This document shows positions 29,843-36,390 of a stretch of DNA of 61,484 bases, piece by piece. Position 1 is the stretch's first letter. Each line of letters opens with the position of its first letter. A model generated the notes under the pieces. That model did not search any database, was not told the DNA's origin, and saw only the letters and a list, made by a program, of their open reading frames with translations. The stretch is from Rhodospirillales bacterium (GTDB taxonomy: Bacteria > Pseudomonadota > Alphaproteobacteria > Rhodospirillales > JAPHRK01), in the NCBI GenBank assembly GCA_026196105.1, contig JAPHRK010000038.1:1-61484 (forward strand), given 5' to 3'. The position numbers and the translations under genes are program-made.

Positions 29843-30727
29843 ATGGGTGAAGGTGCAGTTAAGCCGATAATTGGTGTTATCGGCGGCAGTGGTGTTTATG
29901 AAATCGATGGGTTAGAGAATACCCGTTGGGAAAAGGTTGAATCCTCTTTTGGTAAGCCATCTGATGAGCTTTTCTTTGGGGAACTTAATGGTCAGCAACT
30001 CGTCTTCTTGCCGCGCCATGGTCGTGGGCATCGCATCCCTCCCTCAGAAGTGAATTACTGCGCTAACATTGATGCGTTAAAGCGTGTCGGTGTGACAGAA
30101 ATTCTCTCCATTTCCGCCTGCGGTTCTCTTAAAGAAGATTACCCTCCAGGAACTTTCGTGATCGCTGATCAGTTCATTGACCGGACGATTAATCGCAAGA
30201 AAAGCTTTTTTAGCAAGGGCCTTGTGGCCCACGTAGCCCTTGGTCACCCCGTTTGCTCCCGTTTGGGCGACGTCATTGAGGACGTTCTAAAAGCTCAAGG
30301 TGTCCCCCATTATCGTGGTGGAATCTACCTCGCTATGGAAGGACCACAGTTCTCTACCTTGGCAGAGTCAAATCTTTACCGCCAATGGAACTGTGACGTG
30401 ATCGGCATGACTAATATGCCCGAGGCAAAATTAGCTCGTGAAGCGGAAATTTGTTATGCCACCGTTGCCATGGTGACAGATTTTGATTGCTGGCACCCGG
30501 ATCACGACCATGTCACTGTCGATGCCATTATTGCCGTCCTTCTCGGCAATGCCGACAAAGGCCGTGCTTTGGTCAAAGCCGCTGCACCAAAACTTTCTGG
30601 TGAGCGTGACCTCTGCCCATGTGGATGCCAAACCGCTCTAGAATCAGCCCTTATCACCGCCCCTGAAGCCCGTGACCCAGAGCTGGTTAAAAAGCTGGAT
30701 GCGGTTGCAGGGCGTGTGTTAGGTTAA
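29843..30727 (+). CDS. mtnP: S-methyl-5'-thioadenosine phosphorylase
   Basis: MtnP cleaves methylthioadenosine to adenine and methylthioribose-1-phosphate. The 294-aa protein has IGVIGGSGVYEIDGL at the N terminus, the phosphate-binding LPRHGRGHRIPPSEVNY, the substrate loop YLAMEGPQFSTLAES and the C-terminal MVTDFDCWHPDHDHVTVD, all typical of MTA phosphorylase rather than purine nucleoside phosphorylase. AAGGGG precedes the ATG. The partner genes mtnA and the aldolase lie downstream on the same strand, separated by an oppositely oriented unknown gene. Confidence 0.95.
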   Translation: MGEGAVKPIIGVIGGSGVYEIDGLENTRWEKVESSFGKPSDELFFGELNGQQLVFLPRHGRGHRIPPSEVNYCANIDALKRVGVTEILSISACGSLKEDYPPGTFVIADQFIDRTINRKKSFFSKGLVAHVALGHPVCSRLGDVIEDVLKAQGVPHYRGGIYLAMEGPQFSTLAESNLYRQWNCDVIGMTNMPEAKLAREAEICYATVAMVTDFDCWHPDHDHVTVDAIIAVLLGNADKGRALVKAAAPKLSGERDLCPCGCQTALESALITAPEARDPELVKKLDAVAGRVLG

Positions 30728-30751
30728 AATTCTATAAAAAAATAATGGATA

Positions 30752-32068
30752 TTATGGACGGGGCTTTCGTGTGAACACGACGGCTCTGTCTGCACGTAAA
30801 CAATCAGAAATTATTGATGTTATTGTATCTGAGCTTGCCCTTCTGCTACCTATCAAACCATTCTTTAAAAAATCGTTGAAAGTTTTTTCAGAGAGATGTT
30901 TTCTCAGAACGTCTTGGCTTGCTTTAAGAGTTTGCCCGGTTTCTTTACATTCACGTGCATATGATGCCCAAAGGTCATATGAAAGATATTGACCTTGAAT
31001 CACGTTGTTTTCAAATGGAGCAAACTGAATAGATTTACAGAACTTAAAGAAGAACGGTGACGAAAAAGCTTTGAAATTACTATAGGTACTATTTAAGTTT
31101 CGACCGATTTCTTCTCTTTCAATTATAGCTAGCTCTCTAGTAAATTCCTTCATTTTGCGAATATCAGATTTATAATTTTTATCACTGTTTGGGTAGTAAA
31201 CAAACCGATTACTTTTTGTTTTGCTCATTCGTTTGTACTGAACAAGACAAAAACTCTCTATCTCTTCATTATAGAAAATTAGATCTACACCTAGAACTCT
31301 TTCAAGCTCATTCCGGTTTGCCATTGTAACTAATATTTCTCTGTTTCCATCTGAAAAAACATTTGTTTTGAAGTGATACTCATCAATAAGTGCGAATTTA
31401 TCGAAATACTTTTGATCATGAATAAGGATATCGTCCTCAGTTAAATGGATCTCATCAGGTACAAAAATTCCATCATTATAGGTTAATGATTCTTCATATT
31501 CATCAGGTTCCCATAAGTCCTCATATCCAATAGTTTTGAGGCCAAATGCTTTTGCAGCGCTTTGAAGTGCATCACGTTGTAATGCAAATAACCTTGCTTT
31601 ATCAGGGTGGTCATCAAAGCTTATTCCATTTGTAATCTGTATTAACTTGTTAAGCTTATGCTCAATCTCAGGGCGTAAAATTATTAGCCGGTCAATAGCA
31701 GCTTTTAGCACACCAGAACCAAGGCGAATTTTGTTTTGTTTTAGAATTTGACTTTTTGTTAGTTGCCCAACTTGGGTGTTTGGTAAAATATCATCAAGAT
31801 CTATTTGAGCGAACTGGGTAACCTGCTTTAGTTTGATTCGAACTGATTGGGTAGCTGTAGTTCCCGTTTTTACACCTAGAGCGAATGCATCCACTTTATT
31901 CCTGGCAAACCCTAGAAGATAAATACCTAATTTTTCAGGTTTGAGGTCAGGTAATGATGCATTTTCGGTAAAGTACTTTTTATAGAGAAGATTATCTTTT
32001 ATGCTTTTAACTCTTTCGGGTTCATCAAATTGAAAAAAAAAGCCATCTTGACTTGGAGTTTCAACCAT
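30752..32068 (-). CDS. Uncharacterised protein with PD-(D/E)XK nuclease-like motif
   Basis: The 438-aa protein matches no family that I know. Residues 254-279 read E-x-E, then G-V-D262-L-I, then V-Q277-Y-K279-R, which fits the E..D..(E/Q)xK pattern of Mrr-like PD-(D/E)XK nucleases. Before this is a helical region (about 100-180), and after it an Arg/Lys-rich helical part (290-420). The gene is clearly more AT-rich than its neighbours. It lies in reverse between mtnP and mtnA, genes that are normally adjacent, so it looks acquired. A single-gene defence nuclease is possible. No partner methylase or helicase is nearby. Function remains unassigned. Confidence 0.7.
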   Translation of the reverse strand: MVETPSQDGFFFQFDEPERVKSIKDNLLYKKYFTENASLPDLKPEKLGIYLLGFARNKVDAFALGVKTGTTATQSVRIKLKQVTQFAQIDLDDILPNTQVGQLTKSQILKQNKIRLGSGVLKAAIDRLIILRPEIEHKLNKLIQITNGISFDDHPDKARLFALQRDALQSAAKAFGLKTIGYEDLWEPDEYEESLTYNDGIFVPDEIHLTEDDILIHDQKYFDKFALIDEYHFKTNVFSDGNREILVTMANRNELERVLGVDLIFYNEEIESFCLVQYKRMSKTKSNRFVYYPNSDKNYKSDIRKMKEFTRELAIIEREEIGRNLNSTYSNFKAFSSPFFFKFCKSIQFAPFENNVIQGQYLSYDLWASYARECKETGQTLKASQDVLRKHLSEKTFNDFLKNGLIGSRRASSDTITSIISDCLRADRAVVFTRKPRP

Positions 32069-32117
32069 TGGAGTTTCCTAAGATGTTTTTTACCGTATAG
32101 GGAGGTATGGTAACAGT

Positions 32118-33218
32118 ATGAAAGTAGACGGTAAAGATTTTCGCACGATTTGGTTGGCGGGTGATGGCTGGGGTGTGGAGATTATTGACCAAACCAAACT
32201 GCCCCATGTTTTTGAAATTGTTCGTATGGAAACCCTCGACGATGCCGCCGTTGCCATTAAGGATATGTTGGTCCGAGGCGCGCCATTGATTGGAGCTACC
32301 GCAGCTTATGGGGTTTGTCTTTCTATTCGCAATGACCCAACCGATGCAGGCTTAGAGAATACCTATAAGGTTCTTCACGCTACCCGGCCTACGGCGATTA
32401 ATCTCAAGTGGGCTTTAGATGAAATGACTGCCTTGCTTAAACCTTTGCCAGAAGGGGAGCGGGTAGCTGCGGCTTATAAACGGGCGGCTGAGATTTGTGA
32501 TGATGATGTAGAGATTTGTTCCTCCATCGGGGATAACGGTCATAAGATCATTGCGGATATTTGGGAGAAAAAAGGCAAACAGGGTGTGGTCAATATTCTG
32601 ACCCATTGTAATGCTGGCTGGTTGGCGACTGTTGATTGGGGCACGGCTTTAGCGCCAATTTACAAGGCCCATAATGCAGGTATTCCTGTTCATGTCTGGG
32701 CTGATGAAACTCGCCCTCGTAACCAAGGGGCAAGCCTGACAGCTTGGGAATTGGGTAAGCATGGTGTTCCTCACCACATTATTGTTGATAATGCTGGGGG
32801 GCATTTGATGCAACATGGGCAGGTTGATCTGTGCATTGTCGGCACAGACCGTACTACGGCTGATGGGGATGTATGCAATAAGATTGGTACCTACCTCAAA
32901 GCTCTTGCGGCTCACGATAACAATGTTCCATTTTATGTTGGTCTGCCGTCGCCTACGGTTGATTGGACCGTTCATGATGGGGTTAAAGAAATTCCCATTG
33001 AAGAGCGCGGTCAGGAAGAGGTTACTGATATGACCGGGCGGACTGCTGATGGCTCTGTGGTAACCGTTACTATTTCCGCTGAAGGAAGCCCAGCTGGAAA
33101 CCCGGCATTCGATGTAACTCCTCGTCGCCTTGTGACAGGTTTAATTACTGAACGAGGTGTTTGTGAGGCCAGCCCAGAAGGTCTTGCTGGTTTATTCCCT
33201 GAGAAGGTAATCAAGTGA
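32118..33218 (+). CDS. mtnA: Methylthioribose-1-phosphate isomerase
   Basis: MtnA converts methylthioribose-1-phosphate to methylthioribulose-1-phosphate. The 366-aa protein shows the aldose-1-phosphate isomerase set: [29 protein letters not shown], the catalytic-cysteine loop [13 protein letters not shown], and [16 protein letters not shown] with its conserved aspartate. The eIF2B-like fold is shared with translation factor subunits, but the HCNAG and TADGDV motifs favour the isomerase. Its stop overlaps the GTG start of the aldolase gene. Confidence 0.95.
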
Positions 33219-34110: not shown

Positions 34111-34521
34111 ATGCGTCTTATTTTGGTTTTAGCGGTTACCTTGTTGATCTCTGGTTGTGTCAAATACCCTTTAATCGCAAGCTTTGAAGATATTGAAGAT
34201 CGTTATATCGGGGTCGTCAATTCTAACATGCTTTTTGGCGTAGCGACGGTAAATGCCATTAGCGAAACTGATGGTAATGAGTGTAATGGCAATACAAAGC
34301 TTACTGCAATGCCAGTTAATAGTTTTGGATGTGCCGGGCAAATTGGTGAAGTTGTGTTTGAATGTGGTGACGGAAGAAAAGCGGCTGGAGAATTTAAAGC
34401 TACATCATGCACTTCAGGTTATGGGCAAGGGATTGACAGCAATGGTAATAAATTCAATTTTTACTTCGGCGACAAAGCAAAAGAGTTAATTGATGGTGGC
34501 GGGAAGCCAGAAATTAAATAG
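34111..34521 (+). CDS. Small hypothetical lipoprotein, paralogue A
   Basis: The 136-aa product has a lipoprotein signal, LLISGC at the cysteine near residue 16, so it should be anchored in a membrane. The mature domain contains paired cysteines and the C-terminal signature DGRKA, then TSCTSGYGQGIDSNGNKFN and YFG. The next gene has the same signature, so the two are tandem paralogues. GGGGGAAG lies before the ATG. The composition is AT-rich. Function is unknown; disulfide-stabilised envelope domains are inferred. Confidence 0.75.
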   Translation: MRLILVLAVTLLISGCVKYPLIASFEDIEDRYIGVVNSNMLFGVATVNAISETDGNECNGNTKLTAMPVNSFGCAGQIGEVVFECGDGRKAAGEFKATSCTSGYGQGIDSNGNKFNFYFGDKAKELIDGGGKPEIK

Positions 34522-34554
34522 CCTAGTGATATGAAAAATGAGTCGTTTTGAACA

Positions 34555-34953
34555 ATGAAAAAAATATACCTTATATTCATTTTAATTCTACTTCCTGGCT
34601 GTGCTGCTGAGGTTTTCATTGTAAGTTATGAGGAAAGTGGAGAGCGTTTAGTTGGGACGATTTATGAGAGAATTGAAGTTATAAGTGAAAAGAATGGGGC
34701 GGTTTGTATTGGTGAGTATGAACCAACCACCCAACCAATTGGGGGAGTTGGGCTTTTCTCTTGTGAAGGTATTGGAGGAGTTATCAAATATACTTGTGAT
34801 GATGGTAGGAAAGCCATGTCTGAAACTATGTTTTCATCTTGTTCTTCTGGGTATGGAAGTGGAATAGATAGTAATGGTGATAAGTTTAATGTTTACTTTG
34901 GGCCAGATGTTAAAGCGGCTATAGCAAAACCATCAACAACGCAGGTTGAATGA
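34555..34953 (+). CDS. Small hypothetical lipoprotein, paralogue B
   Basis: The 132-aa product has a lipobox, LLPGC, and a mature part that repeats the architecture of the preceding gene. CEG and CDDGRKA precede SSCSSGYGSGIDSNGDKFN and YFG. The identities cluster in the C-terminal third, whereas the N-terminal halves differ, so the pair is an old tandem duplication. It starts 33 bp after paralogue A and is followed 15 bp later by a secreted protease gene. Function is unknown. Confidence 0.75.
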   Translation: MKKIYLIFILILLPGCAAEVFIVSYEESGERLVGTIYERIEVISEKNGAVCIGEYEPTTQPIGGVGLFSCEGIGGVIKYTCDDGRKAMSETMFSSCSSGYGSGIDSNGDKFNVYFGPDVKAAIAKPSTTQVE

Positions 34954-34968
34954 TTGGGTTAAAAAACG

Positions 34969-36390
34969 ATGGTCTCCAATTTTTTAAAATTGTCCCTATT
35001 TGTTTTATTCCTGGCAACTATTTGGTCTGAGGAGAGCATTGCTGATCTTGGGCACTATAATGGTAAGAAAGTGGTTTTTGTTGATGCGACCAGCAGGACC
35101 CTATTGCGCCAACGTCAGATTGATTTTTCTCCCGAAGTTGAAATTGATATGGAGATTGATGCTGAAAGAGGGTCCTTAGATAGTGCGCTAAACGGAAGTG
35201 CTGATTTTGCCGTTATTTTTGAAGTTGCCATAGCTAAAGCCAATCGGCGCGTCTTGGACCTCAGGCGTATAGCCTCGATCTATGTTGCCAAAACAGAAAA
35301 AATCATAAACCCTGAATGGAAAATGGCAAAGATGAATGCCTTTATGTCAAAATTTGGGGATTCATACGATGGAGATTCAGCCCATAGAGGTTTGGTAGGT
35401 ACACCTAAGTTTATCGAAAAGCCTATCCACGTTAACTATGAATTTGAGCAGGCTCGGGTTCGTGGCACCAAGGCAATGACTGTAAACTACTATGTCGTTG
35501 ACCTCAAAAACAAACGCTATTTCAAATCAAATTTTGATATTAATGAAAAAAAGCAGTTTAAGATTGCCTATCGCCTCCATAAGCGAGATGTAAAACGAAA
35601 CCAACACCTGGAAATTCATAACACAGAAAAAGATGTTAAAAATTGGGAAGACGCTCCTCTAACTATACTGGCTTCGCAACTCTTTAATCAATACGATAGG
35701 AAGCGAGGAAAATCTAAAAAATTAACGAGTATGGCTGCGCTTCGTAAGACCATTCTTAAAGATAAAAATGTAGCTTTGGCAAAGCATAAAGATACTGATT
35801 ATAAGTATGGGGTCGATAAACGTCTTGATAGCGTTGTCGTTATTTATACAGGACGAAATTCAGTAGGAACGGGTTTCTTTATCACGCCTGATATAGTGTT
35901 AACAAACTGGCATGTTATTAATGGTTCAGAGTTTGTTGAGATGAAAATGCATGGGGGAATGGAAACCTTCGGTAAAATCATTGCGAAGGATGTTAGGCTT
36001 GATCTAGCATTAATTAAAGTCCAGAATCGGGGGAAACCAGTTCGATTTTACAGCAAAAGAAAGCTTGACCTAGGGCTGACGACTGAAGCTATTGGACATC
36101 CAAAGAGATTTGAGTTTTCGGTGACGAGAGGGGCCATCAGTTCAATACGGCGTCATTCAAGCATTAACTTGCCTCGAGGCAGTGGAAAAAAAGTGCTTTA
36201 TATCCAAACAGACACTTCGATAAATCCTGGTAATTCAGGAGGGCCTCTATTCCATAAAAACAAAGTAGTAGGTGTGAATACTTGGGGGGTTGGGGAATGG
36301 GACTCAGGCCTTAGTTTTGCAATTCACTATGGTGAAGTTCTTCAATTCCTGAAAGATGTTCTTCCCGAATATTCTCCACATTCCGGTTAG
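34969..36390 (+). CDS. Secreted trypsin-like serine protease with uncharacterised N-terminal domain
   Basis: The 473-aa protein has a Sec-type signal (residues 1-26, ending ESIADLG). A domain that I do not recognise follows (about 27-270), with a beta-rich, lysine-rich make-up. The chymotrypsin-fold domain is C-terminal: VGTGFFITPDIVLTNWHV with H315, DLALIKV with D345, and TSINPGNSGGPLF with S423. There is no PDZ domain, so it is not a DegP/DegQ protease. It follows two lipoprotein genes and precedes a TraT-like lipoprotein gene, all on one strand with short gaps. A periplasmic role in envelope protein processing is inferred. Confidence 0.85.
   Translation: MVSNFLKLSLFVLFLATIWSEESIADLGHYNGKKVVFVDATSRTLLRQRQIDFSPEVEIDMEIDAERGSLDSALNGSADFAVIFEVAIAKANRRVLDLRRIASIYVAKTEKIINPEWKMAKMNAFMSKFGDSYDGDSAHRGLVGTPKFIEKPIHVNYEFEQARVRGTKAMTVNYYVVDLKNKRYFKSNFDINEKKQFKIAYRLHKRDVKRNQHLEIHNTEKDVKNWEDAPLTILASQLFNQYDRKRGKSKKLTSMAALRKTILKDKNVALAKHKDTDYKYGVDKRLDSVVVIYTGRNSVGTGFFITPDIVLTNWHVINGSEFVEMKMHGGMETFGKIIAKDVRLDLALIKVQNRGKPVRFYSKRKLDLGLTTEAIGHPKRFEFSVTRGAISSIRRHSSINLPRGSGKKVLYIQTDTSINPGNSGGPLFHKNKVVGVNTWGVGEWDSGLSFAIHYGEVLQFLKDVLPEYSPHSG

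Follow-up and report, generated by a model that had tools for sequence, protein, structure and literature searches.

The 438-aa product of the reading frame lying between mtnP and mtnA in the window (the whole stretch of 61,484 nucleotides analyzed here) is best explained as a single-gene modification-dependent (type IV) restriction endonuclease that acts by DNA restriction and belongs to a family without a name, a reading to which we give a probability of roughly 60%. Its predicted architecture joins an N-terminal domain of the PUA superfamily to a C-terminal PD-(D/E)XK nuclease (Table 1), and because its N-terminal half looks EVE/YTH-like we favor a modification-dependent restriction enzyme over a repair or plain nuclease. 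In the mechanism that we envisage, the N-terminal domain (residues 1-150) would recognize a modified base in incoming DNA by flipping it out, and the PD-(D/E)XK part would cleave DNA carrying that modification, E211, D262, Q277 and K279 being the residues that would coordinate metal and carry out backbone cleavage; the outcome would be an anti-phage or anti-plasmid effect with modified DNA as the substrate. Phages protect their DNA by base modification, and readers of modified bases serve both cells and, as mapping tools, the laboratory. A family that couples a freely diverging reader to a strictly kept nuclease and is absent from the standard libraries is a potential source of further specificities, and its placement in Gabija operons and at a recurrent metabolic-operon junction gives two places in which to seek combined defense.

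Table 1. Features of the predicted nuclease gene, its junctions and flanking genes, and the corresponding interval in two relatives
Feature	Position	Strand	Basis
Whole gene, predicted modification-dependent nuclease, 438 aa	30752..32068	-	ORF, alignment, model, structure search
Residues 1-150, predicted PUA-superfamily (EVE/YTH-like) domain	31619..32068	-	structural matches, two models
Residues 205-411, predicted PD-(D/E)XK nuclease domain and C-terminal part	30836..31456	-	structural matches, two models
E211, invariant Glu at start of helix 211-221	31436..31438	-	alignments, model
Catalytic-type motif E256-x3-G260-x-D262 ... Q277-Y278-K279	31232..31303	-	kept in 17/17 homologues
mtnP, host flank, outside the system	29843..30727	+	NCBIfam NF006492, E 1.9e-152
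mtnA, host flank, outside the system	32118..33218	+	NCBIfam TIGR00512, E 2.4e-124
Left junction, mtnP stop to end of inserted gene	30728..30751	.	sequence
Right junction, divergent gap from inserted gene start to mtnA start	32069..32117	.	sequence
HEC-01 defense candidate in mtnP-mtnA gap	L066 1117-2897 (G008); L067 1088-2946 (G038)		two relatives

An inserted gene between mtnP and mtnA

The reading frame opens with an ATG at position 32068, is uninterrupted, and is a real gene. Its GC content (0.353) and GC3 (0.264) are the lowest among the 50 non-overlapping ORFs of at least 150 aa in the window, for which the medians are 0.461 and 0.413, and it is oriented opposite to both of its flanking genes. 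An earlier note on this DNA had described an AT-rich, inverted orphan, and the composition, the strand and the absence of convincing family matches all bear this out; the residues that it listed (E254, E256, D262, Q277, Y278 and K279) are also where it placed them.

The gene is an insertion in the mtnP-mtnA interval, because the two host genes are separated by 115 bp or less in 37 of the 44 relatives that carry both on one contig and strand, and because none of 59 order-level relatives has a match to the 438-aa protein at E 0.001 (a single-sequence query of 60 genomes, in which only the window's own genome was matched). By the same measure the gap in the window is 1393 bp, and larger gaps, of 263-1898 bp, are present in seven of the 44. 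The host genes themselves were matched in 54 (mtnP) and 53 (mtnA) of the 60 genomes, counts that include weak paralogues and the window's own genome; G048 has no mtnA match. For the gap count we dropped weak second mtnP matches (E >1e-13; G009, G022, G029, G034 and G043), the mtnP rows of G028 and G046 (weak, and the only ones in those genomes), the first piece of the divided mtnP of G017 (two pieces), and partial or weak mtnA rows (G031, G058 and G023), and we set aside six genomes with mtnP and mtnA on different contigs or strands. No repeats flank the insertion edges; those that were found overlap the gene itself, wholly or in part, instead of enclosing it. The insertion proposed earlier is thus supported, and as a recent one, and the relatives searched exclude the contrary possibility, that a homologue belongs permanently to the mtn cluster.

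The contents of the mtnP-mtnA gap were read in four relatives. Two of them (G008 and G038) hold an HEC-01 pair, consisting of an AAA_21 ATPase and a DUF4276 protein, with PADLOC matches to HEC-01A at E 1.8e-91 and 1.8e-158 and to HEC-01B (the DUF4276 protein) at E 2.6e-33 and 3.9e-70, respectively; in each of the others (G024 and G045) the gap contains a single, different ORF. The occurrence of this unrelated two-gene system in two relatives suggests that defense cargo docks recurrently at the mtnP-mtnA junction.

A small family with an invariant nuclease motif

Homologues were recovered from several collections. A tblastn search of plasmids gave 10 records with a homologue, eight of which were examined, and two further queries gave 9 and 10 records with no new family. 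A scan of a genome collection found one relative among 97 stretches, on a Methylobacterium contig, and a profile run against 385 genomes from the class had hits in five, including the window's own. Three IMG/VR contigs carry homologues: an alignment search found one relative, and DNA patterns with HMM testing found relatives in 2 of 2, 3 of 10 and 3 of 17 stretches, all on the same three contigs (a weak row, L126 at E 0.025, is left out), while an IMG/VR search with the single 438-aa protein found none. Two queries of a phage collection gave no match. The family comprises 17 distinct proteins, the window's and 16 others; it is a small and nameless one, carried by plasmids, prophage-like elements and defense islands.

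There are several clear features in the alignments. First, the motif E-x3-G-x-D-[LI]-[IL]-[YF]-x10-[VI]-Q-Y-K is kept in all 17 proteins even though the window protein is only about 16-24% identical to the other 16, and judged from the sequences this is more conservation than chance would give. Second, the invariant columns of alignment A2 (E211, D218, N251, E256, G260, D262, L263, Q277, Y278 and K279) all lie in the nuclease part, with L263 replaced by I in the member from an actinobacterial phage contig. Third, the N-terminal half diverges freely, as for a specificity domain, and no conserved aromatic pocket residue was found in its columns of alignment A2. Finally, E254, which had been proposed as part of the motif, is not conserved across the homologues; E256 is invariant, and the helix Glu of the nuclease is more likely to be E211 than E254.

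Not every homologue is intact, as those at L006 and L009 are truncated and the one in G194 carries stops. These are what one would see if the window gene too were a decaying insertion of no present function, but its ORF is full length and contains every invariant residue, and we consider decay very improbable.

Sequence-library and profile searches

Pfam, NCBIfam, PHROGs and PADLOC contain no convincing match to the 438-aa protein, the best Pfam row being DUF771 (E 0.025, with 15.1 bits where 22.9 are required), and the family libraries yielded none for its relatives either. Searching PDB sequences with phmmer gave one row, at E 4.4, and a second PDB sequence search gave at best E 0.017, to AhlC-type proteins over the helical region 97-198, a weak and unrelated match. 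For 16 members of the family, Pfam searched at E values up to 10 returned no EVE, YTH, ASCH or nuclease model. When 14 members were aligned by hhalign with 28 EVE sequences the probability was 1.3%, and with 10 Mrr_cat sequences 0.3% (both sets taken from relatives), neither of which is significant; the EVE result weakens kinship only partly, because the comparison set was narrow, consisting of 28 conserved alphaproteobacterial proteins.

The spacing of the motif had been likened to that of Mrr-like nucleases, and the family does share with Mrr and Mrr_cat the order G-x-D followed by Q-x-K. However, there is no match to the Mrr_cat model (PF04471) in the 438-aa protein and no significant sequence or profile similarity between the families, and the N-terminal domain is a different one, so kinship to Mrr was not found at the level of sequence. 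Shedu SduA (DUF4263) is a single-gene PD-(D/E)XK defense protein with a variable N-terminal part; its PADLOC and Pfam models gave no match in the family. The window's genome has no Mrr_cat match and encodes one ordinary EVE-domain protein (G000:C68:34245-34637; PF01878, E 1.1e-46).

Predicted structures

Structure models, both of modest confidence, were made for the window protein (mean pLDDT 56.7) and for the L019 homologue (mean pLDDT 67.8, with blocks of residues 31-160 at 70-90). The second was added because the Z scores of the first lay near the level typical for no clear match; both come from the same five-row alignment, differ only in the query, and are not independent in alignment. Between residues 211 and 345 the window model has a helix (211-221), three strands (227-230, 233-240 and 243-249), a short helix (254-259), two strands (263-267 and 272-283), a helix (299-323) and a strand (339-345), and a helix-strand order of this kind is that of the PD-(D/E)XK core. 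In the model D262 stands at the start of strand 263-267, and Q277 and K279 within the next, as the fold requires; judged indirectly in this way, from the order of elements, the placement goes against the refuting condition named earlier, in which D262, Q277 and K279 would lie far apart.

Structural comparison by VIA-align gave RecU as the best match to the window model (Z 9.5, rmsd 3.1, 138 residues aligned, model range 162-406; and Z 9.2), together with the Hjc-type ST1444 (Z 8.2) and I-Ssp6803I (Z 8.1). Among its best 50 matches, four are PD-(D/E)XK enzymes and 46 are YTH/EVE-type structures on residues 1 to about 152, at Z 7.6-8.6, which is close to the Z of 7-8 typical of models without a clear match; Atu2648 and Rpa0253 are matched structures that we take to be EVE domains. 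The L019 model matched best the EVE domain of THYN1 with 5-methylcytosine DNA (Z 10.5, rmsd 3.4, 129 aligned), I-Ssp6803I and ST1444 reached Z 9.9 and 9.7, and its best 50 matches comprise 41 PUA-type structures on the N-terminal part and nine PD-(D/E)XK structures on the C-terminal part. The two models thus have the same two domains, with no other fold among the best 50 matches; a family missing from these tables was not counted as excluded. With Foldseek no match reached E 0.001: YTHDF2 came first for the window model (E 0.1, probability 0.90), and Hjc (E 0.017), an ASCH-type protein (E 0.034) and YTHDC1 (E 0.040) were found for the L019 model. A viral structure library likewise gave nothing at E ≤0.001 (best 2.3e-3).

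We think it very probable that the C-terminal part has the PD-(D/E)XK fold, and likely that the N-terminal part has a PUA-type reader fold. The earlier proposal of a PD-(D/E)XK nuclease therefore stands, on the invariant D262, Q277 and K279 and the matches to RecU, Hjc and I-Ssp6803I, but it had missed the EVE/YTH-like domain in front. Compared with enzymes that combine a PUA-type reader with a PD-(D/E)XK nuclease, the protein as modeled has the nuclease domain and, by fold, the reader domain, for which the Foldseek E-values are weak.

The matched PUA-type structures include the RNA readers YTHDC1 and YTHDF2, and structure matches cannot tell the substrate, both of which would be in keeping with an RNA-directed or suicidal effector whose PUA-like domain reads modified or phage-altered RNA or tRNA and whose nuclease cut stops the infected cell. 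Such an effector seems unlikely, however. First, RecU, Hjc and I-Ssp6803I, which the nuclease part matches, act on DNA. Second, the top reader match of the L019 model is a THYN1-DNA complex. Third, there is no antitoxin-like partner gene beside the window gene.

Gene neighborhoods and the relation to Gabija

The neighbor scan covered 16 proteins, picked by eye for their apparent relevance, from 10 of the 16 other loci (L006, L008, L009, L015, L019 and L027 lie outside it). A PADLOC-named gene is nearby in seven of the 16, and some scanned neighbors have no PADLOC match. Gabija (GajA/GajB) adjoins the homologue in four: it is downstream in L004 (GajA E 2.9e-220, GajB E 1.1e-178) and in L003, where GajA is split by insertion sequences; it is upstream in L063 (G279), where the homologue begins one base after the end of GajB; and it is divergent, 86 bp away, in L065 (G194). 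GajA of L063 and both Gabija genes of L065 were called by tblastn at 31-37% identity. Other neighbors include a predicted IetA-like ATPase with an annotated S8 peptidase (L005) and a PDC-M01A/PtuA-like ATPase (L010), PADLOC ATPase models being ones that cross-match widely, as well as a C5 methylase with Vsr (L002), an MTase_II (L065), and proteins matching Pfam Mrr_cat (L007) and SLFN_AlbA_2 (L013), these last two without a PADLOC match. By eye, the homologue of L062 lies among conjugation genes, and those of two IMG/VR contigs (L019 3987-5366 and L027 3832-5193) lie inside runs of phage structural genes, a cargo (moron-like) position. The broken homologue of G194 (L065 8525-9860) has internal stops, and next to it are Gabija, an ORF resembling HNH and a DNA methylase.

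This search of homologue neighborhoods for defense islands, suggested earlier as a check, did find homologues beside defense genes, and we consider a role in defense likely. The original choice between a single-gene defense nuclease and a DNA-repair nuclease is accordingly kept in its first half; the second half is disfavored by the EVE/YTH-like domain.

A related possibility is a structure-specific DNA enzyme, either a junction resolvase or a repair nuclease, whose PUA-like domain merely binds DNA and which aids conjugative plasmids or phages. In its favor, RecU and Hjc rank high in the structural comparisons, and many homologues are on plasmids (the 10 records) and phage-like contigs. Nonetheless, the close company of Gabija loci and of Iet-like, HEC-type or methylase loci, the patchy presence (five of the 385 class genomes searched, counting the window's own) and the window's chromosomal copy with no mobile element alongside argue in the other direction, and we regard this enzyme as improbable. 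The Holliday junction resolvases RecU and Hjc share the PD-(D/E)XK fold with the family (best Z 9.2-9.7), but the matched chains have no PUA-type domain, and their motif is E-x-K where the family has Q-Y-K.

The proximity to Gabija also raises the question of whether the protein, instead of being an autonomous enzyme, works facultatively with Gabija and ATPase systems like it. It adjoins GajA-GajB in the four loci above, in operon-like order in three (L003, L004 and L063). However, L004-type GajA is present in 300 plasmid records (40 inspected) and the homologue in only 10, three of which have an adjacent GajA. Moreover, Gabija operons L138, L139 and L140 have no homologue, although L138, from Agrobacterium, is otherwise the L004 operon (621-aa gene 85%, GajA 83% and GajB 86% identical), and a search of the window's genome, run without a positive control, gave no GajA match. 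An obligate part of Gabija is rejected by the absence from L138, L139 and L140, and a facultative partnership appears very unlikely. The homologue of L004 falls precisely at the boundary of the 621-aa gene with GajA, which makes it a second example of a clean insertion that separates neighboring genes of an operon. The 621-aa protein itself, GHKL-ATPase-like by eye and directly before GajA-GajB (L004 5881-7746; L138 2080-3945; 85% identical), is possibly an extra Gabija-associated gene.

More speculatively, the family could be a movable one-gene restriction cassette that has repeatedly entered tight operons, including Gabija, where it would equip the Gabija complex with a trigger or blade for modified DNA, with the mtnP-mtnA junction in the window's order a docking site for such cargo; we think this rather unlikely.

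Relation to known modification-dependent enzymes

The reading as a modification-dependent restriction endonuclease places the family next to enzymes of published layout, in which a PUA-type reader is joined to a PD-(D/E)XK or HNH nuclease (PMC7641849, PMC7897488, as excerpted). Bell, Wolf and Koonin (2020, PMC7641849) report EVE-PD(D/E)XK and YTH-PD(D/E)XK fusions, which they regard as putatively type IV restriction enzymes, and in the excerpts of that paper these have, like our family, reader and nuclease in one protein, a fast-evolving reader and a defense context; in contrast, Pfam EVE is not detected in our family, and its profile is not significantly similar. EVE-PD(D/E)XK enzymes are thus already a published class, to which this family would add a member without a name, and no description of it was found in the titles or abstracts of the literature searched. 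VcaM4I, a characterized EVE-HNH endonuclease (PMC7897488), is according to excerpts of its description also a single gene with an N-terminal PUA-type domain of ~150 residues followed by the nuclease, but that nuclease is HNH rather than PD-(D/E)XK, and its pocket residues P24, W82 and Y130 have no conserved counterpart that we could find in alignment A2. A recent single-gene type IV enzyme, CMoRE, has a GIY-YIG nuclease (PMC12923530, in excerpt).

Elsewhere in the window, positions 34111-36390 (+) contain a pair of ORFs that resemble each other, each lipoprotein-like and about 130 aa long, and after them a gene for a 473-aa protein matching Trypsin_2 (E 5e-23), in a stretch with a GC content of 0.38-0.40.
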